From positions 1 to 64,000 of the forward strand of contig JACRIM010000004.1 in the NCBI GenBank assembly GCA_016235815.1: 64,000 nucleotides of DNA, in the 5' to 3' direction. Numbering within the stretch: the first letter of the stretch is position 1; every line of letters begins with the position of its first letter. This stretch comes from Planctomycetota bacterium. GTDB lineage: Bacteria > Planctomycetota > Phycisphaerae > UBA1845 > UTPLA1. Positions 779 through 62,956 of this stretch are shown here, piece after piece. The notes beneath the pieces are model-generated. The model was not told the DNA's origin. It did no database searches and worked only from the letters and a program-made list of their open reading frames with translations. The position numbers were made by a program, and so were the translations under genes.

Positions 779-798
779 AGCAGGCGGGGACGCCTGCT
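779..798. repeat. Interspersed palindrome, family A
   Basis: AGCAGGCG and CGCCTGCT form a perfect 8-bp stem around GGGA, followed by a TCCACT-type tail. Related units with a GA-C loop and a CCACTGGGAT-like tail occur at 28321-28339, 33201-33219 and 39260-39279. The element lies in the 443-bp gap between 705 and 1147, which otherwise holds only the next repeat and the leader of the oligopeptidase gene. Confidence 0.6.
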
Positions 799-879
799 CC
801 ACTCTCATTTCTCCGGTGGCGGTGATTATCCGTGTTGAACGGCATGGGGGCAAAGAGCGTTCGTGAGCAGGGGTTTGGC

Positions 880-6784: not shown

Positions 6785-8602
6785 TCATCGGCTGGGAGTG
6801 GCCAGCGGCGACCAGTCGAAATTGATGACATCTCCGCCTGGCGCGAGGCTGCCGCTGAGTTTCGTGGTTGAACCGCCGTCAGCGGAAACGATGTAGAGCT
6901 CAAAATCCTCATCCGCGTCCTTGTCGGCGACAAAGGCCAGGCGCGTTCCATCCGGAGACCATCGGTAGAAGTCGATATTTCCGCCCGCGACCATCGTGCC
7001 GCTGACTTTGGTCGTCGGTCCGCCGCCACCGGCCACCACGAACAACTCAATGACGTCATCCGTATCTTGGTCGGCGTCGTATGCAAGACGAACCGCATCC
7101 GGCGACCAGGTCGAGTCGCTGACAAAACGATTGGCCGGCAGAGTCGGGCTGAGCTTGGTAATGCCACCGCCGCCGGCCGGGACCGAATAAAGTTCGTTGA
7201 TGTCGATGTCGTCTATCAAACCGTCGAAGGCCAAACGCGTTCCATCCGGCGACCAGACGTAGCCTCGTACCTCGCCGCCGTTCACCAGAAGGCCGCTGAC
7301 CTTGGTCGTCGCGCCTCCGCCGGCCGGGACGGTGTACAGCTCCGTCACGCCGTTTGTATCCTTGTCGGCGTCGAAGGCAAGCCTCGTGCTATCGGGCGAC
7401 CACTCAAAGTTGTTGACCTGGCCGGGGCCCGAGAAGGCCCCGCTGACCCTGGTGGTTGCCCCGCCACCGACTGGGACCGAATAAAGTTCCCTCATGCCGG
7501 CGGTATCCTTGTCGGCCTGAAAAGCCAACCGTGTCCCATCCGGAGACCAGGCAAAGTTGTCGACACTACCGCCCGCCACCAGCGAGCCGCTTACCTTTGT
7601 TACGCTGCTGCTGTCCACGGCCACAACATAGAGTTCGGTCACGCCGAGCGTATCCTTGTCAGCACTGATGGCGAGATTGGCTCCATCCGGCGACCAGGCA
7701 AAACCATCGACCTGACCGCCCGCGACGAACGTGCCGCCTATCTTGGTGACAGGGCCGCCCGCGGCGGAAACAACGTAGAGTTCATCAATCTGATCCGTAT
7801 CCTTGTCGGCGCGAAATGCCAACCGTGTGCTGTCGGGCGACCAGTTTATGGTTCCCACTTCGCCGCCCGCCACCAATGGCCCGCTGACCTTGGTCAAAGC
7901 TCCGCCTTCCGCAGCGACGACAAACAATTCATCGACGCCATCCGTATCTATGTCAGCCGTGAAGGCCAAACGTCTCCCATCGGGCGACCATTTGAACGTG
8001 TCAACATCCGCGGTCGTACCCATTACGCCGCTGACAGCGGTCGCGGCCCCGCCGGTGGCCGGAACCACGTATAGCTCGAACTTGTCGTCCGTATCCCGGT
8101 CGGCGACGAAAGCCAGCCGTGACGCTGTGTTAACGGCGTATTCCACGGACAACGCTCCCTCGACGCCGGCGCTGCTTACCGCGGCAACACGGAAATGGCG
8201 CACGCCGCTGTCAGGGAACAGGAGTACGACGGATTGGCGATCACCGCCCGGCTCCGCGTGAACCAGCGCTGCGTTCTTGTTGACATCGGTAATCGGTGCG
8301 TCCGACTCATAGACGCGAAAAAAGCTGACGAATATCCCGCTCGTCGCCATGTTCCAACGCAAATCGAATTCCGGCGGAGTTCTGATGTGTGAGGTAATGC
8401 GCAGACTTGTTGGAGCAGCCGGGGGCGTTAGGTCAAGCGATCCGGGAGGGCCCTGGGCGCCTTGATCGCCCTGGGGTCCGGCTGGGCCTTCCGGCCCCTG
8501 CGGTCCGCTGGGCCCCACCTGGGCCATGGGCTCCACGGTATTGCAACCAATCTGCACGAGACCGACCGCAACCACGAGCACCGCGAAAATAGGTTTCGAC
8601 AT
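6785..8602 (-). CDS. Lipoprotein with collagen-like stalk and nine-repeat propeller
   Basis: This 605-residue lipoprotein has a signal ending in LVQIGC. A short collagen-like Gly-x-y stalk follows (about residues 30-53), then a fibronectin-III-like segment (about 58-155). After that come nine tandem repeats of about 49 residues with the pattern RLAF-ADKDT-ELYVV-GG-TKVSG-WSPDGT. The repeats resemble TolB/PD40 beta-propeller blades. The recurring D-x-D-T-D at the start of each repeat could bind calcium. ATG 8602 is chosen because AGGAGG lies 6 nt upstream; the longer frame to 8872 lacks a signal peptide. It is probably anchored in the outer membrane, and its ligand is unknown. Confidence 0.85.
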   Translation of the reverse strand: MSKPIFAVLVVAVGLVQIGCNTVEPMAQVGPSGPQGPEGPAGPQGDQGAQGPPGSLDLTPPAAPTSLRITSHIRTPPEFDLRWNMATSGIFVSFFRVYESDAPITDVNKNAALVHAEPGGDRQSVVLLFPDSGVRHFRVAAVSSAGVEGALSVEYAVNTASRLAFVADRDTDDKFELYVVPATGGAATAVSGVMGTTADVDTFKWSPDGRRLAFTADIDTDGVDELFVVAAEGGALTKVSGPLVAGGEVGTINWSPDSTRLAFRADKDTDQIDELYVVSAAGGPVTKIGGTFVAGGQVDGFAWSPDGANLAISADKDTLGVTELYVVAVDSSSVTKVSGSLVAGGSVDNFAWSPDGTRLAFQADKDTAGMRELYSVPVGGGATTRVSGAFSGPGQVNNFEWSPDSTRLAFDADKDTNGVTELYTVPAGGGATTKVSGLLVNGGEVRGYVWSPDGTRLAFDGLIDDIDINELYSVPAGGGGITKLSPTLPANRFVSDSTWSPDAVRLAYDADQDTDDVIELFVVAGGGGPTTKVSGTMVAGGNIDFYRWSPDGTRLAFVADKDADEDFELYIVSADGGSTTKLSGSLAPGGDVINFDWSPLATPSR

Positions 8603-8925: not shown

Positions 8926-10029
8926 CTATTTGCAATAGCCCGTCAGTCGCTTTAGGACGAGGCGGTCGCAGTCTTCGCGCGTTGCAGGTTTGATCGCCTG
9001 GAAGTCCTTGTGGTGCGAATTCTGGAAATCGACCAACACCCATTCGCCCTGCCGATCGCAGATGGCGAAGTGGGCCGCGCCGACGTTGTCCTTGCCCATC
9101 AGGTAGTCGGCGTACAGAACATAATCCGCATCGGGCTTTGCCTTGCGAACGAAGTCTCGGAATGCGCGGGCCATACCCCAGAGAACCTTTTGCTCGTTCA
9201 TGTTCGGTTGCACGGCGAACTTCTCGATATGCGGCGCGGCCGATGCCTTGGCGAGGCCGGCCTTATTAATCATCGCGACGAGGGCGGTGGCGCTGTCAGA
9301 GTTCAGCGCATCGCCCGCGTGCACGGGATAGACAAGCAACGTTGACGCGGCGGCGGTCTTCTTGAGAATGCCGAGGCGCTTCGTCATCGCCTCTTGTTCG
9401 GCCTTGTCGGGGACGCCGGTGTCTGATTCCCATTTCCTGGCGATTTTTCCTTCCGGTGCATTCGCGCGGGTCGGGTCGTCGAGGTTCAACGTGGGGCGAA
9501 GTCGCTCGGCGACGAGGAGGCAGCACTGCATTGGCTCGGCTGGTTTGATCTTTTTGAACGCGGCGTCGCGGCGTGTTTGCGCGTCGCTCCAGACGATCTC
9601 GCCGGACTTGGTGACGACGATGGTGCGCACCTCGGTGAACTTATGCTGCGGGGAGGCGATGAATTCGGTGTAGAGGACGTAGTCGGTCTCGACGGGATGG
9701 CCCTTCACGAATTCGCCGAATGCGGCGGCGGTGGTTGCGAGGTCGGCGTCGACGGCGGGGCGAAACTCGGCGTCGGAGGTTTGCAGGTTGGTCATGCCCG
9801 CCTTTTCGAGCAGCATGGCGACGACCTCGCCGACTTTGGCGACGGGCCGTCCTGCGAGATTGGTGGGCAGGACGGTCATTGAGGCGGCCTTTCCGGAATC
9901 GCGGAACGCCTTGAGCTGCGGCGTGTCGGCGGCGGATGGCTCGGTTGAGTTCGCGGTCTGGGCGCAACCGGGCAACGCCAGGGCCGCAACGAGGCCAATG
10001 ATTCGGTGGATGTGTTGAACGCGTGTCAT
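8926..10029 (-). CDS. Lipoprotein with internally duplicated domain
   Basis: This 367-residue protein has a lipoprotein signal (lipobox ALPGC) and two homologous halves. The first half has ETDYVLYTEFI then KIKPAEP-LLVAERLRP. The second has DADYVLYADYL then AIKPATR-LVLKRLTG. The function is not recognised. It lies directly downstream of a TetR gene on the same strand and is preceded by a site matching 14 of 18 bases of the TetR gene's own palindrome. It is therefore probably a TetR target induced by some stress or compound. Confidence 0.8.
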   Translation of the reverse strand: MTRVQHIHRIIGLVAALALPGCAQTANSTEPSAADTPQLKAFRDSGKAASMTVLPTNLAGRPVAKVGEVVAMLLEKAGMTNLQTSDAEFRPAVDADLATTAAAFGEFVKGHPVETDYVLYTEFIASPQHKFTEVRTIVVTKSGEIVWSDAQTRRDAAFKKIKPAEPMQCCLLVAERLRPTLNLDDPTRANAPEGKIARKWESDTGVPDKAEQEAMTKRLGILKKTAAASTLLVYPVHAGDALNSDSATALVAMINKAGLAKASAAPHIEKFAVQPNMNEQKVLWGMARAFRDFVRKAKPDADYVLYADYLMGKDNVGAAHFAICDRQGEWVLVDFQNSHHKDFQAIKPATREDCDRLVLKRLTGYCK

Positions 10030-16904: not shown

Positions 16905-16970
16905 GGGATATCGGTCCTCTCTGCGTAATCGTAACAGGAACGGGATTGGGGAGAAGGCAGAGAGGAAAAA

Positions 16971-17090
16971 GGGAACGGGGAACAGGGAACAGGGAACAGG
17001 AGGGAGGCACAAAGGCACGGAGGCACGGAGGCACAAAGGGAATAGGGAACGGGGAACAGAAAAAGGCACAAAGTCACCGAGGCACAGAGT
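16971..17090. repeat. Heptamer and octamer tandem repeats (STRR-like)
   Basis: Four GGGAACR heptamers lie at 16971-16998, four GGCACRRA octamers at 17006-17037 and three more GGGAAYR heptamers at 17038-17058. Degenerate GGCACAAAG-type units follow to about 17090. This resembles the short tandemly repeated sequences of cyanobacteria. It sits upstream of the YceH-family gene. Confidence 0.8.
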
Positions 17091-17154
17091 CGTAGGGTCC
17101 GCTGTGCGGACCATTGGTTGTCGCGCATTCGTGGTCCGCACAGCGGACCCTACG
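17091..17154. repeat. Nested inverted repeat with 23-bp arms
   Basis: Arms at 17091-17113 and 17132-17154 are perfect reverse complements separated by 18 bp. Each arm itself contains a smaller palindrome (GGTCCGC and GCGGACC around TGT or ACA), so the DNA could fold as one long hairpin or two small ones. A single arm recurs inside a gene at 38842-38863. The rest of the gap to 17341 holds nothing I recognise. Confidence 0.8.
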
Positions 17155-30302: not shown

Positions 30303-31274
30303 TCAATGATGGATGACGATCCCGCAGGCGTCGCGGACTTTGGCCATGACGCCTTGGGCCACGGCGCGGGCCTTTTTGCCGCCGGATGCGAGGACGTCTT
30401 CGGCATAGGACGGGTCTTTCTCCAGCGTCGCGCGGCGCTCGCGGGCCGGGCCGAATTTTTCTTCGAAGAATTCGGCGAGTCGCTTCTTCGCGTCGCCGTA
30501 GCCCATTCCGCCTTTGCGATAGCGGGCGTCCCACTCGGCGATTTCGTCTTTTGACGCGAAGAGTTTCAGCAGGGCGAAGATGTTGCAGGTCGTCGGGTCT
30601 TTCGGCTCTTCGACCGGCGTGCTGTCGGTCTTGATGCTCATGATCTTTTTCTTGGCCGACTTTGCATCGTCGAAAAGGTCAAGGGTGTTGCCGTAGCTCT
30701 TGCTCATCTTCTCGCCGTCGACGCCGGGGACGATGGCCGCTTCGTTGAGCCGCGCCTGCGGCAGCTTGAAGACTTCGCACTTGTAAGTGTTGTTGAAGTA
30801 GCCAGCCATGTCGGCGGTCATCTCAATGTGCTGCACCTGATCCTTGCCGACGGGGACGACGTCGCTGTGATAGATGAGGATGTCGGCGGCCTGCAGGATG
30901 GGGTAGCAGAAGAGGCCCATCGAGGCGGAGAGACCCTTCGCGGTTTTGTCCTTGAAGCTGACGGCGCGTTCGAGCAGGCCCTTGCCGGTGACGGTGGAGA
31001 GAATCCAGGCGAGTTCGGTGACTTCGGGTACATCGCTCTGGCGAAAGAGGCAGGCCTTGGCCGGGTCGAGGCCGAGGGCGAGGTAGTCGAGTGCGACGTC
31101 GCGGGTGAGGGCGCGGAGTCGGTCGGCGTCCTGAATGGTGGTGAGGGCGTGGTAGTTGGCGATGAAGATGAAGCACTCCTCGCGCTCCTGGGCCTCGATG
31201 TGCTGCTTCATCGCGCCGAAGAAGTTGCCGAGGTGGAGCTTGCCGGAGGGTTGGACGCCGCTGAGGATTCGCAT
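30303..31274 (-). CDS. trpS: Tryptophanyl-tRNA synthetase
   Basis: This 323-residue class I synthetase has a complete sequence. SGVQPSGKLHLGN holds the HIGH-type motif (residues 14-17), DQVQHIE is in the Rossmann fold, and GEKMSKSYGN holds KMSKS at 189-193. The first 86 bp are duplicated at 33080-33165. No good ribosome site precedes this copy; the nearest AAGG is about 14 nt away. The duplicated copy upstream has AGGA at normal spacing. The gene probably now relies on a transcript that starts upstream of the kinase gene. Confidence 0.96.
   Translation of the reverse strand: MRILSGVQPSGKLHLGNFFGAMKQHIEAQEREECFIFIANYHALTTIQDADRLRALTRDVALDYLALGLDPAKACLFRQSDVPEVTELAWILSTVTGKGLLERAVSFKDKTAKGLSASMGLFCYPILQAADILIYHSDVVPVGKDQVQHIEMTADMAGYFNNTYKCEVFKLPQARLNEAAIVPGVDGEKMSKSYGNTLDLFDDAKSAKKKIMSIKTDSTPVEEPKDPTTCNIFALLKLFASKDEIAEWDARYRKGGMGYGDAKKRLAEFFEEKFGPARERRATLEKDPSYAEDVLASGGKKARAVAQGVMAKVRDACGIVIHH
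31189..31274. repeat. 86-bp direct repeat, copy at the functional trpS start
   Basis: This is identical base for base to 33080-33165. The repeat begins exactly at the trpS start codon and covers 28 codons plus two bases. Sequence identity stops on both sides. The two copies bracket the HipA-like module. Confidence 0.95.
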
Positions 31275-31317
31275 CGTACTAAAGTATGACCTTGTTCGAA
31301 TTCAATGATGTACCGGG

Positions 31318-32091
31318 TTAGTTTGCAGGAACGGTTACAACAATTGGTTGGTAGTCATCCGAGGAGCAGGGCACAAAGCCGCCTTCCGGCCAACAGGACG
31401 TGAGCTTACAGAGAAGTCGCATTTGTAACGGGGCGGGTTCGGCGTTGACTCGTTCTACAGTCACCACTGGCGAAAAAGGGCAGTCCTTAATGAGTTCAAA
31501 CGCATCGCGCAGTAAATAGCTTGGGCAGTAGCCCACAAGATGTCGATCACCATTATCCCCCGCAGTTCTTAGACCCAGGGCAAAAGGATCGTGCGGATTT
31601 TGAAAGTCATGGAAGAGCAATAGTCTGTCGCCGGGGGATAACTTGCTGATTCGAGTCTTACTGTCCTCCGGCAGGTGACTGATTCCGTGCGAAAAGAATC
31701 GCACATGATATTCCCCTCGTTCGTCCATGTCCGGACAGGGGAACACTTCGAGCGCATCGGTCATTCGGCGGCCGCCGCTTCGGCCAAGCAGGATGATCGG
31801 ATCGCGCTCGTCGACCGTTACCCCCAGCCATTGGACATAGTCGGAATAATCCGGCCGATTGGAGTTAGGGAGTCGGTTGGAAAAGAGCGGAAATAAGTCG
31901 CTCGACTCGTAAGCCTCCTCGAGCGCTGGAAAAGATTGTAATGGAACAAAACCGTACTCGCGTCGTGCTCGTTCAGCGCCGCTCGTATATTGAAATCGGT
32001 ACACGGTTCCGTCGTGGGTTAACCGGGCAATCGGCGTCCAACGTCGCGATCGAGGATCCTGCCATGCAACGAAGAGTGTTTTCAACTCCAT
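31318..32091 (-). CDS. HipS-like protein fused to a HIRAN-like domain
   Basis: This 257-residue protein has an N-terminal part (about 1-120) that resembles the small N-subdomain of HipA: VAWQDPRSRRWTPIARL, YRFQYTSG, FPLFSNRLPNSNRPDY and LLGRSGGRRMTDALEVFP. In HipBST systems that subdomain is a separate protein, HipS. The C-terminal part (about 135-240) looks like a HIRAN domain (LSPGDRLLLF, FQNPHDPFALGLRT, LVGYCP), which in other proteins binds DNA ends. The start overlaps the kinase stop by 10 bp, and trpS follows 43 bp later. It may act as the antitoxin or targeting partner of the kinase. The assignment comes from pattern recognition only. Confidence 0.7.
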   Translation of the reverse strand: MELKTLFVAWQDPRSRRWTPIARLTHDGTVYRFQYTSGAERARREYGFVPLQSFPALEEAYESSDLFPLFSNRLPNSNRPDYSDYVQWLGVTVDERDPIILLGRSGGRRMTDALEVFPCPDMDERGEYHVRFFSHGISHLPEDSKTRISKLSPGDRLLLFHDFQNPHDPFALGLRTAGDNGDRHLVGYCPSYLLRDAFELIKDCPFSPVVTVERVNAEPAPLQMRLLCKLTSCWPEGGFVPCSSDDYQPIVVTVPAN

Positions 32092-33059
32092 GACTCCATC
32101 AGCGAAACAAGTCGCCGTCGGTTGGCATCGAGCAGTGCGACCGCGAAATCCGCCGCAACATCCGAGATTCTGGTTCGCGGAAAGCGGTCAAACACAACTC
32201 TGAACTCCTTGATGGATCGTGTAGCGACTTGCAACACCCACGCTTTTGCCGCAGCGCCATCATAGTGGGCAGCCTTGGCGAATGCGTCAATGGTCATCAT
32301 CGCCTTCGAGTCGTCCTCCGTATGATAGAGAGCAGAACGAGCTTTCTCAACGTACCCTTCCATAGGAAACCCATTTTCTGCGGCCAGTATGCTCGTGCGC
32401 TTTGAGTCCACAAGGTGCGCGCCAAGGGAAGACGCATGATCAAATGTCGGGGCCATTCGCAACAGCCACTCGCCTGGAGTCGCCGGGGAAATGAATCCCC
32501 CGGGATCAGTGTTCAAATGGACTGAGCTGTCGAGCACAATCGCCCAATTCTCATGATGGCGGTCCGTGTTGCCGATCAGCACATCGAACATCAGATAACC
32601 GATCATCAATCCTGTCGGCGTGGAAACGCCGTGAGGAGGCGTCCACCCCATCGGTAGTCCGATCTGATCATCGTTCAAGACCGAAAGAACATTCTTCAGT
32701 GTGTGTTTACTCTGCCCATACCTTTTCGTCGCCGAGGCTTCGTATCCCTTGACAATGTTGACGAGGATTTCGTTTCCATGAATGAGTGATTGATGTTCCA
32801 TGACGATGCTGGGACTTGCCGTGCCGGACACGCCTCCGTATTCCGCGAGTTCATAACGAGCATGGGGAAGACCAAGCAGGTCGGCGATCTCGGCCGCCGC
32901 CTTTTCAGCCCAGTCCTCGCCGGTTCCGGGGCGCGGCCGTTTGAAAAGGCAACGGCCGAACTTGGAGTCCTGATACCAGAACTTGTCCTTGGTGCCCATT
33001 GGCTCACTTGCCAATGGTGCGTTGATAGGCACATGGATGATCGGAAACAACTCATGCAT
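32082..33059 (-). CDS. HipA/HipT-like serine-threonine kinase
   Basis: This 325-residue protein has the HipA-type kinase core. Lys40 (CLFKRPRPGTGEDW) is a candidate ATP-site lysine, followed by a helix with EKAAAEIADLLGLPHARYEL. The catalytic loop reads IGNTDRHHENWAIV, with Asp166 and Asn171. The metal-binding Asp207 lies in APTFDHASSLG. The N-subdomain of classical HipA is missing here and appears in the next gene. No HipB-type helix-turn-helix gene is present. The G+C content looks lower than in trpS and tyrS, suggesting transfer. Known HipA homologues phosphorylate aminoacyl-tRNA synthetases; the position beside trpS makes TrpS a candidate target. Confidence 0.78.
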   Translation of the reverse strand: MHELFPIIHVPINAPLASEPMGTKDKFWYQDSKFGRCLFKRPRPGTGEDWAEKAAAEIADLLGLPHARYELAEYGGVSGTASPSIVMEHQSLIHGNEILVNIVKGYEASATKRYGQSKHTLKNVLSVLNDDQIGLPMGWTPPHGVSTPTGLMIGYLMFDVLIGNTDRHHENWAIVLDSSVHLNTDPGGFISPATPGEWLLRMAPTFDHASSLGAHLVDSKRTSILAAENGFPMEGYVEKARSALYHTEDDSKAMMTIDAFAKAAHYDGAAAKAWVLQVATRSIKEFRVVFDRFPRTRISDVAADFAVALLDANRRRLVSLMESWS

Positions 33060-33165
33060 AACGATTCGGATGCCGGTCGTGGGCCTCGATGTGCTGCTTC
33101 ATCGCGCCGAAGAAGTTGCCGAGGTGGAGCTTGCCGGAGGGTTGGACGCCGCTGAGGATTCGCAT
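33052..33165 (-). pseudogene. Truncated trpS leader ORF (37 codons) overlapping the kinase start
   Basis: This short frame holds the first 28 TrpS residues, including HLGN, followed by nine unrelated residues ending in RHPNRYA. Its TGA overlaps the ATG of the kinase gene in ATGCATGA. It is preceded by CAGGA at good spacing. It is therefore the original trpS start cut off by the insertion, and probably also a translated leader that feeds ribosomes to the kinase gene. Confidence 0.8.
33080..33165. repeat. 86-bp direct repeat, upstream copy
   Basis: This is a perfect copy of 31189-31274. The sequence beyond its start-codon end (33166 onward) carries the AGGA ribosome site and is probably the native trpS leader. 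Confidence 0.95.
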
Positions 33166-37696: not shown

Positions 37697-38060
37697 CAAA
37701 GCGCGTGGCCCCCGGCAGGGGGCGCGGAGTGTCGCCACGGGTGGAGCGTCGCCGGGGTGAAGCCCGCGACGCGGAACCCGTGGGTGAGGATTTTCATTTC
37801 TCACGAGGCCCCGGAGGGGTGGCGGAGTTTGTTGGAAGCCGGGAACAACGGGTTGAGCCGATGCCCTCCTTCGCCCCTCCGGGGCTTAATGCGCTGCGCG
37901 ACAACTGACCACGGGCTTGCGCCCGTGGCTACATTCCGTTGCCCCTCCGGGGCACTGCAACATGGTGAAATCGGCTGGCGCACTAAGTGTGGCACTACTC
38001 CGACACTTTAACCTTGGGTACAAACTTGAATGCGGGGCGGTCACGATTTGATACGTGCTG
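37697..38060. repeat. Cluster of interspersed palindromes, family B
   Basis: No gene is seen in this 364-bp gap. It contains a composite element with CCACGGGT (37735-37742) and ACCCGTGG (37776-37783) as outer arms. Further palindromes are GCCCC-TCC-GGGGC at 37873-37885, CCACGGGC-TTGC-GCCCGTGG at 37909-37928, and a second GCCCC-TCC-GGGGC at 37941-37953. A related element lies at 62880-62956. Confidence 0.75.
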
Positions 38061-40676
38061 TTATTTCGTCTCGCTGCGCAGGCGGGCGATTCGCTTCTCT
38101 AGCCCATCGCGCATTTCCTTCGTCATTCGATGCAGCGGTGAGACGTAGATGCGCCGGGCTTCGAGGTCGAGGGCGGTTTGGAGTTCGCTCGCGGCGTCGG
38201 CGTTGAAGCGCATACGGTCGGCGGGCGAGTCGGACACACTCGCGCGGCGTTCGAGAAGGTCGGCGACAAACATGTGGCGCTGCGGGCTGGTGGGGTGGGC
38301 CGCGAGTGCTTCGCGGGCGCAGCCGATGGCGAGATCGAGGTCGGAAGAGTCTTGAGGCTTGAGGCTTGAGACTTGGGGCCCGAGTCGTGAGGCTTGAGAC
38401 ATCGCGGCGGGCGAATCCTGTGCGGCGAGTTGCAAGGCGAGTTCGGAGCGTCGGGCATAGAGGATCGCCCGGTAGTGATGCACAAGCGCATTGTGAGGGT
38501 CGCGCCGTTCAAAGACGTGGGCCTCGCTCAACGCATAGTCAAAGTGATTGGACTGGGTGACTCTTGGGGCCAAGATGTCCAGCATTTCCTCAATCGCGGT
38601 TGCATCATCCTCGTAGAAGGATGCCACGTTTGCGTAATTGCCCGTACACAATGGTAATCCTCGAACATCCAGAGTTGATTGCTGAGATGGTGCTCTCGCG
38701 AGATTCAATCCTTGGGCTGCAAAATGCGACCTCAATAGTCGTGGACCGCTCATACACCACGCAATGGAGCATGAAGCGATGAGCAGGCCCACCCCCGGTG
38801 TCGTCGGTTTCGCACAAACCGGAGGTGCGGTCGCAACGTATTGGTCCGCACAGCGGACCCTACTTGCGATGGCGAGCAGCGCGAAAAACGTCGTCGCTGC
38901 GCCGCCGGTAAACATGGCGAGGTCGATGCCGGAGTGGATCGTGAAGCCGAGGAGGCCGGCGGAGAGGGCGGCGAGCATGGGGCCGAGTGGGGCGTCGGAG
39001 ATGGATTTGCCGGAGGCCGGTTCGTAGGCGGTGAGGAAAAATGCGATGAACCATGCGACGGCGGGGATAAAGAGGGTGAGCACGATGTAGGGCGGCGGGG
39101 CGTCGAGGAGTATGGTGAACCAGCCGGCGAAGACGATGAGTCCGATGGCGGCGCTGGAGAGGATGATGGAGGAGGTGTGAAGCGAGCCTTCGGGGAGTTC
39201 GAGCCAGGTGTCGGATGACGAGTGGAGCGGGCCTCCGTGCCCGCTTTTCGCATTCGTTCGGCGGGTAGGGACGCCCGCCCCACTGGGATCGGGAAGCGTT
39301 TGTCCGAGTACCGGCGCTTTGTCGACATGCCACAAGGGTCTCCCATGCGACTCTTCGACTTGCGCCTTGTGCTCGGATTGATTCGCAATCCTCCGAGAGA
39401 TTCCCACTAACACCGCAACGAGGCCGACCAAGCCGAGCACGCCCCATTCGGTTGCAGCGCGGACGACCCAGCTATGCGGGTCTTCCACATCCTCGGGGCA
39501 TTCGACGTCTTTGTAGCGTGTGAAGAAGCGGCCGAAGTTGCCTGCGCCGACGCCCCATGGTCCTTGGTCATGGATCATCGCGGCCGAGGCGCGCCAGTAG
39601 AAGTGGCGGAAGAGCATGGAGCGACCGAGGGAGTCGGGTTTGATCTGCAACGTCACGGGGAGTGCGACGGCTATCGCGAAGAGGCAAGCCCACGTTGCGC
39701 CGACGGCGAGCCTGGGACGATTGCGAAATGTCGTGCTCAGGCGTTCGCCGATGATCCACGCGACCAGTGCGATGCCAAGCGCCGCCGCCGCGCCTTTGCT
39801 TTGTGCGCCGGCGAGTGTGATGACGCCTGCGATGGCGATGAGGATCGGGATGATCGCCGAGGCCATTGAAACGCCGATGGCGCTTGAACGGTCTTGGCGT
39901 GGAGACGAGTCAGTCGAACCCGCTCCCTGACGGTCGCGGCTCGGAAATACACAGTCGCGGCTCTGATTTGTCTTCGACAAGCGCGACCGGGCGACACCGA
40001 AGGCCGTCAGGATGATGAGGATCAGATAGCTCGCGAGAACGTTCGGGTGCGAGAAGAAGCCGGTCATGGAGCCGCCCTTGAGGCGCTGTTCGTAGTCGTA
40101 GATGAAGCCGGGGTTCGACTGGTTTTGCGAGATCAGTTCGGCCTTGTGTTCGTTGTAATACTGCACCGTCTCGGGCAACTCGACGAATCGTTGATAGGCG
40201 CATTTGGTGATCATCACCGCGCCGGTGGTGAGAATGACGGTGAGCGCGAGGCGCACCTGCCACGGGCGGCGAAGCAGTTGCGACAGGGCGATGAAGTAGG
40301 CGATGAAGCCGAGGAAGTCGATGCTGCCGATGATGGCGAGGTGCTTCTGGCCGGCGCGCCAAGTGGAGATGCACATCGCGACGGCGAGGATGGCCGCCCC
40401 CCACTCGGCGCCGGTGCGTCGATAGCCTTCGCCGGACCATTGTCGCAGGACGAGCACGAGGCCGGTGACGGCGAAGATAAGGGCGTTGATGGCGAAGGTC
40501 GTGGCGGGGGATGCACCGGCGGGGGCATCGAGCGTGCGCAGGCCACGGGCGACTTCGAAGGTGTGTGTTTCGCCGATGACGGCGCGCAAAGGAATGAGCG
40601 CGAGCAGCATGAGCAGCGCGGCGTGTTCCACGAACGGGCGAAGGCTTGACGGGGTTGTCGAACGTTTCGCGGCCAC
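38061..40676 (-). CDS. O-antigen-ligase-like membrane protein with repeat-derived inserts
   Basis: This 871-residue protein has about a dozen membrane helices. The GVGAGNF segment with ECPEDVEDPHSW in a large loop is typical of the Wzy/WaaL family, whose members polymerise or ligate polyprenyl-linked glycans. The C-terminal 200 residues are helical and TPR-like. Four stretches look like absorbed interspersed repeats: 39908-39967, 39226-39290, 38842-38863 and 38351-38399. They fall in loops or linkers and keep the frame open. It is next to the sugar-1-phosphate transferase gene with a 1-bp gap, so the two should act in one polymer pathway. Confidence 0.85.
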   Translation of the reverse strand: MAAKRSTTPSSLRPFVEHAALLMLLALIPLRAVIGETHTFEVARGLRTLDAPAGASPATTFAINALIFAVTGLVLVLRQWSGEGYRRTGAEWGAAILAVAMCISTWRAGQKHLAIIGSIDFLGFIAYFIALSQLLRRPWQVRLALTVILTTGAVMITKCAYQRFVELPETVQYYNEHKAELISQNQSNPGFIYDYEQRLKGGSMTGFFSHPNVLASYLILIILTAFGVARSRLSKTNQSRDCVFPSRDRQGAGSTDSSPRQDRSSAIGVSMASAIIPILIAIAGVITLAGAQSKGAAAALGIALVAWIIGERLSTTFRNRPRLAVGATWACLFAIAVALPVTLQIKPDSLGRSMLFRHFYWRASAAMIHDQGPWGVGAGNFGRFFTRYKDVECPEDVEDPHSWVVRAATEWGVLGLVGLVAVLVGISRRIANQSEHKAQVEESHGRPLWHVDKAPVLGQTLPDPSGAGVPTRRTNAKSGHGGPLHSSSDTWLELPEGSLHTSSIILSSAAIGLIVFAGWFTILLDAPPPYIVLTLFIPAVAWFIAFFLTAYEPASGKSISDAPLGPMLAALSAGLLGFTIHSGIDLAMFTGGAATTFFALLAIASRVRCADQYVATAPPVCAKPTTPGVGLLIASCSIAWCMSGPRLLRSHFAAQGLNLARAPSQQSTLDVRGLPLCTGNYANVASFYEDDATAIEEMLDILAPRVTQSNHFDYALSEAHVFERRDPHNALVHHYRAILYARRSELALQLAAQDSPAAMSQASRLGPQVSSLKPQDSSDLDLAIGCAREALAAHPTSPQRHMFVADLLERRASVSDSPADRMRFNADAASELQTALDLEARRIYVSPLHRMTKEMRDGLEKRIARLRSETK
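38351..38399. repeat. Heptamer tandem repeat inside a gene (CTTGAGR x7)
   Basis: Seven consecutive 7-bp units (CTTGAGG, CTTGAGG, CTTGAGA, CTTGGGG, CCCGAGT, CGTGAGG, CTTGAGA) lie in the TPR-like end of the ligase homologue. The protein reads SQASRLGPQVSSLKPQ there. Confidence 0.8.
38842..38863. repeat. GGTCCGCACAGCGGACC palindrome inside a gene
   Basis: This 22-bp stretch is identical to one arm of the inverted repeat at 17091-17154, including the trailing CTAC. It is translated as part of SRVRCADQYV in the ligase homologue. Confidence 0.8.
39226..39290. repeat. Two palindromes inside a gene, family A-like
   Basis: AGCGGGC-CTCCGT-GCCCGCT is at 39226-39245. GGCGGG then CCCGCC are at 39260-39279 with the loop GA-C and a CCACTGGGAT tail, as in family A. 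They encode the GAGVPTRRTNAKSGHGGPL linker of the ligase homologue. Confidence 0.7.
39908..39967. repeat. Repeat-like GAGCCGCGACCGT unit inside a gene
   Basis: On the minus strand two related copies (AGAGCCGCGACTGT and GAGCCGCGACCGTCAGGGAG) encode SRDCVFPSRDRQGAG in a loop of the ligase homologue. From general familiarity this motif occurs widely in planctomycete genomes, but I cannot verify it here. Confidence 0.55.
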
Positions 40677-40677
40677 G

Positions 40678-41775
40678 CTAGCGCTCCGTTCGCGGCTGCC
40701 GTGAGCCGGTCCATTCGAGAAGAGCGACGATGCCGACGACGAGCAGCGTTTCTCCAGCGATGCACCACGCCAGTGTCCATGTGGCCGTTGCCAACATGAG
40801 CGCGGGTAGCGCGGTGATGAGTGTTGCCAGCCAGATCAGCAGCACTGCGCCGCGTACGCCGAAGCCGCGCTGGATGAGCCGGTGCGAGAAATGCCGCCGA
40901 TCGCCGGTCCAGATCGGCGCGCCGATGCGCCAGCGGAGAAAGATGACGCTGATCGTGTCATACAGCGGCACGGCCATGACCACGAGCGGTGCGAGCGCGC
41001 CGATGGGTTTCTGCCCGCGAGCCGGGTCGGCGAAGGTGGTGAGGATGGTGAACACGGCGAGAAGCAGGCCGATGACCTGACTGCCCGCGTCGCCCATGAA
41101 GATCTTCGCCGGGTGAAAGTTCATCGGCAGGAAACCCGCCGTCGCGCCGGCCAGCAACATGCAGCACGCAGGCACGAAGACCTGCCCATCGTGCCATGCG
41201 GCCGCGGCGAACACGGTCGATGCGATCATGGCGACACCGGCGGCGAGGCCGTCCATGTTGTCGAGGAAGTTCAGCGAGTTCATCAGCGTGAGGATCCAGA
41301 CGATCGACAACGCGCACGACGGGGCGTATCCGAGGTGCGAAAGCAAGCGTAGGTCGAACGCGAGCACGAGCGCCGCCGCGACGGCGATCTGGACGAGCAG
41401 TTTCGGCAAGGCTCCCATGGCGCGGCGATCATCCCAGAGGCCCATCGCGCACATGAGGACGATGGCGGCGATGATCCCGAGGGCCAGTGGCGTCTTGGTG
41501 ACGATGCCGCCGGTGTGAATGCGTGCGGCCTCCGGCATCCACGCCGCCGCGCCGAGGTTTGCAAGCGCGACAGCGCCGAGCATTGGCAACACAACGGCCG
41601 CGGCGATGGCCACGCCGCCGCCGAGGGCGACGGGCTGTGCGTGGGCCTTGTGGCCGCCGGGGTGGTCGATGAATCCGACGCGGATGGCGATTCGACGAAC
41701 GATCCATGTGCCGGGAAGGCTGATCATGCCGCCGATGAACGCGGCGAAGAGCGGAAGTGCGGCCTGTGTCATCAC
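40678..41775 (-). CDS. Polyprenyl-phosphate sugar-1-phosphate transferase (WecA/MraY superfamily)
   Basis: This 365-residue membrane enzyme has about ten helices and the family loops GLWDDRRAM, NFLDNMDGLAAG, FMGDAGS and TGDRRHFSHRL. It transfers a sugar-1-phosphate to undecaprenyl phosphate, starting a cell-surface polysaccharide. The sugar cannot be told. The adjacent ligase/polymerase homologue supports a polymer pathway. MraY itself is less likely, since it normally sits in a cell-wall cluster. Confidence 0.92.
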   Translation of the reverse strand: MMTQAALPLFAAFIGGMISLPGTWIVRRIAIRVGFIDHPGGHKAHAQPVALGGGVAIAAAVVLPMLGAVALANLGAAAWMPEAARIHTGGIVTKTPLALGIIAAIVLMCAMGLWDDRRAMGALPKLLVQIAVAAALVLAFDLRLLSHLGYAPSCALSIVWILTLMNSLNFLDNMDGLAAGVAMIASTVFAAAAWHDGQVFVPACCMLLAGATAGFLPMNFHPAKIFMGDAGSQVIGLLLAVFTILTTFADPARGQKPIGALAPLVVMAVPLYDTISVIFLRWRIGAPIWTGDRRHFSHRLIQRGFGVRGAVLLIWLATLITALPALMLATATWTLAWCIAGETLLVVGIVALLEWTGSRQPRTER

Positions 41776-62879: not shown

Positions 62880-62956
62880 GGCCCCGAAGGGGCCGCGGGT
62901 TGTAGCCACGGGTGAAGCGGCGCGGTCGCCCTGGCGACCCGACGCGTAACCCGTGG
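62880..62956. repeat. Composite nested palindrome, family B
   Basis: GGCCCC-GAA-GGGGCC at 62880-62894 is followed by outer arms CCACGGGT (62906-62913) and ACCCGTGG (62949-62956). These enclose an inner palindrome GGTCGCC-CT-GGCGACC at 62924-62939. It sits 10 bp past the stop of the gene at 62967 and resembles the element at 37697-37990. Confidence 0.75.

Follow-up and report, generated by a model that had tools for sequence, protein, structure and literature searches.

Four kinds of interspersed repeats read in frame in an O-antigen-ligase homologue, and REP-associated transposases embedded in enzymes of Planctomycetota

A single planctomycetotal gene, encoding an O-antigen-ligase homologue, harbored four different repeats, all in frame within one open frame, as an earlier note on this DNA had claimed. 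The gene is very probably a normal homologue in which permissive loops have accumulated non-autonomous elements mobilised by RAYTs, with the transposase genes of the genome following the same rule. It lies in a window of 64,000 nucleotides (the whole stretch of DNA analysed; G000:C44:1-64000) belonging to a 4.58-Mb draft genome of 60 contigs, about 95.5% complete.

Results

Repeats within the ligase homologue

The 871-aa ORF matched PF04932 with 40 bits (cut-off 31.7), and homologues were present in 77 of 81 searched genomes (E <= 1e-10). On this basis the gene was assigned as a Wzy_C/O-antigen-ligase homologue with putative ligase or polymerase activity. Searches of solved structures and of related loci with the ligase protein gave no match. 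The positions of the gene, of its repeats and of the associated transposases are given in Table 1.

Table 1. Positions of the ligase homologue, the repeats and the repeat-flanked transposases (window coordinates unless a contig is named)
Feature	Position	Strand	Basis
O-antigen-ligase (Wzy_C) homologue, host gene	38061-40676	-	Single open frame, 871 aa; PF04932 above cut-off
Glycosyltransferase family 4 gene, context	40678-41775	-	PF00953; adjoins ligase upstream, same strand
SRDR insertion, aa ~236-267	39876-39971	-	Not in homologues, which have ~7 aa there (alignment of 24 homologues; match break between 235 and 272; loop lengths)
SRDR unit GAGCCGCGACCGTCAGGGAGCGG, CnGA foot, translated SRDRQGAG	39920-39942	-	Exact match to genome-wide consensus
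Second, diverged SRDR unit GAGCCGCGACTGT	39951-39963	-	Sequence match
Family A insertion, aa ~441-492	39201-39356	-	Alignment of 24 homologues; match break between 433 and ~500
Family A unit, inverted-pair arm	39222-39244	+	Pattern match
Family A unit, other inverted-pair arm	39261-39283	-	Pattern match
GTAG-type REP GTAGGGTCCGCTGTGCGGACC, translated RVRCADQ, aa 605-611	38843-38863	-	Variable linker; sequence match
CTTGAGR heptamer array, translated ...VSSLKPQ	38347-38398	+	7.4 units, 73% matches; within insertion aa ~748-774
GTAG-REP, left half of BIME, identical to ligase copy	17092-17112	+	Sequence match
GTAG-REP, right half of BIME	17133-17153	-	Sequence match
Further family A unit, 2 mismatches to pattern	780-802	-	Pattern match
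Family A Y1_Tnp gene	C8:83213-83395		Between family A copies at 83048(+) and 83572(-)
SRDR Y1 transposase	C34:9907-10125		Between SRDR units at 9785(+) and 10302(-)
GTAG-REP Y1 transposase	C29:132326-132685		Between REPs 132087/132141 and 132744/132872

Homologues were compared by tblastn against 80 relatives, where the matches were interrupted at residues 235 to 272, 433 to ~500 and 745 to 776, and by an alignment of 24 homologues, in which the SRDR, family A and heptamer stretches appeared as insertions. The expectation that all four stretches are insertions thus held clearly for three, whereas the GTAG-REP brings no net increase in length to its sequence-variable linker (24 homologues), and may therefore have replaced linker sequence. 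This REP is identical to both arms of the palindrome at 17092-17153, one of which had been pointed out before, and it folded as a hairpin (-8.1 kcal/mol, z -5.7). The family A element was present as described and formed an inverted pair (fold -21.3 kcal/mol, z -3.8). Of the reported paired units, both were found; one is an exact copy of the SRDR unit GAGCCGCGACCGT (39930-39942) and the other a variant. The heptamer array was recovered as well; it showed no hairpin in the fold test, no transposase partner was found for it in the genome, and it probably originated by slippage.

According to the hydropathy profile of the family, from which the topology was inferred, the SRDR, family A and GTAG-REP sites are loops between membrane helices, and as homologues are K/R-rich there, these loops are predicted to be probably cytoplasmic. 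The heptamer linker sits in the C-terminal soluble region, so that the description of the repeats as linkers between helices applies to the three membrane-domain sites. A homologue from another family of the same order (L038, genome G065) shared this GTAG-REP exactly, in the corresponding linker and reading frame ('VRCAD'), probably through an independent insertion; apart from this case, the same stretches were not conserved in distant species. In the homologues of G002 and G013 the family A linker was occupied by another repeat-like stretch (CCCTCTCCCTCCCAGG...), and in that of G010 the GTAG-REP linker by a further repeated one. The ligase loops are therefore recurrent landing sites, in agreement with the proposed relaxed constraint on them.

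Repeat families across the genome

The GTAG-REP was represented genome-wide by 79 copies with at most one mismatch (97 matches with at most two), the GAGCCGCGACCGT unit by 59 copies, family A by 29 and the heptamer pair by 32 matches. A reversed control pattern had 0 matches in the genome, the repeats thus being more numerous than expected by chance, and the dispersal of multiple families bears out the claim that several repeat types have spread. The GTAG-REP has a 5' GTAG tag beside a short stem-loop, as in the GTAG superfamily, and its copies often occur in inverted pairs (e.g. 17092/17133). Of 61 copies of the SRDR repeat, 60 had a CnGA foot, and the DNA hairpin of this repeat was weak (z -1.3); repeats of TnpA class 3 likewise carry a CnGA foot, and their secondary structure has been described as atypical (PMC6006769). 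Family A units begin with GTGG[AG]GCGGGC and have no 5' GTAG tag, and were therefore not classed as GTAG-REP. The GTAG-REP, SRDR (a CnGA-REP of TnpA class 3) and family A are classified as REP/BIME-type elements, and for each of them this genome has a Y1 transposase gene with inverted copies of the element on its two sides.

Two further repeats were observed in the window. A palindromic element at 37907-37953 and 62881-62927, with GTAGCCACGGG beside CCCC..GGGGC arms, is possibly an extra REP family, and imperfect arrays of an AGGGAAC heptamer and a AGGCACAA-like octamer (16970-17052) directly precede the GTAG-REP pair at 17092.

The distribution of the repeats relative to genes was inspected over 464 kb around repeat copies, using a purpose-built codon model that missed the ligase's own GTAG-REP. 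By the same rule, 12% of GTAG-REP, 34% of SRDR, 26% of family A and 25% of heptamer copies were intragenic, compared to 62% of random window positions: the repeats are depleted in genes. Same-strand intragenic SRDR units mostly shared one frame (15 of 19, read as SRDR[KQE]GAG; counted by ORF, 11 of 14, with P of about 2e-3). Inserts were found within recognised domains of Ser/Thr kinases, an M32 carboxypeptidase, RadA and RlmL, and further in-frame inserts in ValS, MmeI and KdtA.

In the 464-kb sample, two or more of the four types occurred together in the ligase ORF alone, and random placement of all four in one gene has an expectation of ~2e-6 genome-wide, a rough figure that depends on our own intragenic calls. 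This unusual number of repeat types, together with a 7-bp array that could shift the frame, speaks for the suggestion of the earlier note that the repeats are kept to diversify or switch a surface-polymer enzyme. We nevertheless consider this very unlikely: the inserts avoid two long conserved loops of the ligase (163-212 and 345-412; hydropathy profile over the family), and the same elements occur in frame in housekeeping and other enzymes (kinases, RadA, ValS, RlmL, carboxypeptidase, MmeI). Selection for surface variation was rejected on these grounds, and phase variation by the heptamers because the array, with 73% matches, is imperfect and would be a poor switch. We infer that the ligase inserts are neutral or tolerated.

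RAYTs in frame inside alaS and purH

The arrangement of each Y1 transposase between copies of one repeat (Table 1) suggests that GTAG-REP, SRDR and family A were each mobilised in the past by their own repeat-flanked RAYT. The SRDR-flanked transposase lies within an open frame of 1238 aa, with alanyl-tRNA synthetase sequence on either side. It carries NHVH and Y----Q motifs and, with the CnGA foot and high copy number of the SRDR system, resembles TnpA class 3, which combines these same features and occurs in Planctomycetes (PMC6006769). A second transposase lies within a 798-aa PurH frame. In both cases Pfam detected a complete host enzyme with a Y1_Tnp match between its parts, that of the PurH fusion scoring 20.3 bits against a cut-off of 23. 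Both alaS and purH had one match in this draft genome (about 95.5% complete, 60 contigs), where a second copy may have gone undetected.

On the solved AlaRS chain 4xem the insert falls at residues 304 to 312, and on PurH 3zzm at 269 to 276. The alaS loop formed a graded series among relatives, being empty in G001, occupied by SRDR alone in G008, and by SRDR, RAYT and inverted SRDR in the present genome, G015 and G007. Full-length alaS-RAYT fusions were found in G015 and G007 (72% and 67% identity), and purH-RAYT fusions in G041 and G032 as well as on the main contig of the near-complete genome G019 (7 contigs). This recurrence bears on whether the stretches are real insertions at all. Draft assemblies are prone to repeat-driven errors, and the GTAG-REP brings no net length gain, as would fit chance similarity, misassembly or artefactual RAYT fusions; given the many exact copies, the empty control search, the full-length fusions in other genomes and the main-contig position in G019, such an explanation is hardly credible.

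Among the Pfam matches of the alaS and purH fusions there was neither an intein nor a homing-endonuclease domain, and intein-like splicing was rejected for lack of an intein domain. An AlphaFold model of one alaS-RAYT fusion (L401, 1179 aa, eight sequences) was poor overall (pLDDT 64, pTM 0.40), and showed an alpha/beta domain at ~333-480 between low-confidence linkers (292-330 and 481-524), an arrangement that would fit a tethered domain without proving one. The embedded transposase is presumably translated as a segment of its host protein.

Distribution of embedded RAYTs among relatives

Other hosts of in-frame RAYTs were ileS, valS and gcvP, often with the RAYT in the same loop of the host gene across relatives, and alaS of G029 contained a double insertion. 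Elsewhere in the phylum, RAYTs were found in valS and in a BREX-2 PglX gene. The majority of RAYTs among the Pfam-search matches listed were free-standing frames of about 150-240 aa. Among the best 80 named relatives of the alaS-type RAYT (GTDB-wide), 35 were in frames of at least 450 aa, alaS accounting for 11 of them, valS for 14, DUF1156 genes for six and ISP restriction genes for two; as sampling began from alaS- and purH-type queries, this share of embedded copies is biased upwards. All 14 valS copies occupied one site, the host alignment breaking between about 441-449 and 644-658, and eight of the 11 alaS copies lay in the loop used in the present genome, the other three at a second site.

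In a tree of 83 RAYT domains, with many weak branches, host labels needed 11 changes compared to 34 when shuffled: by this measure RAYT lineages cluster by host gene. The HUH histidines and the catalytic tyrosine were invariant in 12 copies of the alaS/valS/pglX type and kept in the purH/ileS/gcvP type, and pN/pS was below 1 in all pairs compared. An ATG within 15 codons upstream was present in 3 of 25 embedded copies but in 27 of 46 others. With the NCBIfam model REP_Tyr_transpos (cut-off 80), the ileS-embedded L345 scored 94 bits, and the class 3 (alaS/valS/pglX) copies scored 28-35 bits, below the cut-off.

Several embedded copies had hosts of another kind or unusual surroundings. In-frame RAYTs were present in six DUF1156 methyltransferase genes (L404, L397, L442, L449, L450, L458), two type ISP restriction genes (L413, L417), the BREX-2 PglX gene (L389) and, by eye, a PglX-like gene (L394); these hosts are phage-defence-type DNA methyltransferases. 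Long translated tandem arrays surrounded the embedded RAYTs of G029 ileS (L347; at least a dozen GSIGVPPV... units) and G050 purH (L352; SSAKLRFAPPASPDD units).

The numbers in alaS and at the one valS site, with others in ileS, purH and gcvP, the clustering by host, the invariant catalytic residues with pN/pS below 1 and the scarcity of upstream ATGs would all fit selective retention of RAYT/REP elements in frame inside essential genes, since their loss from such genes would need precise excision, as with inteins and homing elements. This is possible but rather doubtful. The DNA-methyltransferase hosts (DUF1156, ISP, PglX) are non-essential, a few old insertions inherited vertically account equally well for the clustering in a tree with many weakly supported branches, sampling bias inflates the embedded share, and part of the selection on the transposase may be older than its insertion.

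Other features of the window

At 30303-33165 (minus strand), 92 bp of the 5' end of a trpS-like gene (31183-31274) are repeated at 33074-33165 with 98% identity. Two ORFs separate the copies: 31318-32091, which has a HIRAN domain and matches HipA-N weakly, and 32082-33059, without Pfam match and HipA-like by eye. This looks like a module inserted at the trpS start with duplication. Some HipA-type kinases target TrpS. At 6852-8005, eight copies of a ~125-nt repeat with exact 147-nt spacing (62-74% identity) probably encode a 49-aa repeat protein.

Discussion

In the reading that we favor, that of a normal ligase with tolerant loops, a separate Y1/HUH single-strand transposase (RAYT/TnpA_REP) would act on each of GTAG-REP, SRDR and family A, namely the one whose gene, located elsewhere in the genome, is flanked by that repeat in inverted orientation. 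Copies would have landed widely and most gene insertions would have been purged, the survivors being those in frame in flexible loops, as disordered linkers, and the heptamer array would have expanded by slippage. The presence of several long loops under little constraint would explain why the ligase gathered four kinds. Transposase genes would be subject to the same rule, as with the SRDR-flanked RAYT in alaS and the other in purH, both in frame.

Beyond this, RAYTs in frame inside essential Planctomycetota enzymes (alaS, valS, ileS, purH, gcvP) may well lead a regular life there, each forming a domain inside its host enzyme, mostly without its own start codon, tethered by disordered linkers of translated REPs and still mobilising REPs, including those of the ligase.

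The sections of Di Nocera et al. 2013 (PMC3733652) drawn on here describe intragenic GTAG/CGTC REPs and REPtrons, with GTAG palindromes, inverted pairs and REP-flanked RAYTs. They report REPs in frame within genes including uvrA, list Planctomycetes among the carriers, and consider that insertions in flexible linkers may be neutral. The ligase REP is similar in its GTAG tag, its in-frame position and its inverted pairs elsewhere, as is the RAYT flanked by its own REPs. As in-frame intragenic REPs are thus known, the ligase gene represents an established phenomenon in extreme form: those sections give at most two insertions of one family per gene, compared to four unrelated types in one gene here, and whole RAYT genes in frame in host genes were not found described in them. 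The same sections cite Rickettsia palindromic elements (RPE), palindromic repeats in frame in functional proteins; these belong to a different organism and are likened here by manner of insertion alone, and candidate cognate transposases were identified in the present case. In REPIN-RAYT systems, short non-autonomous repeats accompany a long-lived, vertically inherited RAYT (PMC8049555); there the repeats are extragenic and the RAYT has its own gene, whereas here both are in frame inside coding genes. In the survey covering TnpA class 3 (PMC6006769), proteins longer than expected were left out as gene fusions or annotation errors, whereas such proteins recur here, each transposase sitting within an otherwise complete host enzyme.

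Like inteins and homing elements, the embedded RAYTs lie in frame in conserved genes at recurrent sites and retain a nuclease domain; unlike inteins, they occupy variable loops rather than active-site motifs, and splicing is not indicated. A literature search, limited largely to main texts outside subscription journals, turned up no description of RAYTs lying in frame in genes for tRNA synthetases, and in-frame RAYTs in essential enzymes appear undescribed within the literature searched.

REPs are named as extragenic, and RAYTs are regarded as free-standing domesticated genes; in these genomes both are read in frame inside enzymes. The four ligase repeats mark loops that tolerate insertion, and the long proteins written off as fusion products or misannotations merit re-examination. 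Should the embedded transposases be active, synthesis of every molecule of an aminoacyl-tRNA synthetase would also yield a mobile-element nuclease, essential genes would be the element's refuge, and the reason for the long persistence of RAYTs would become directly testable.
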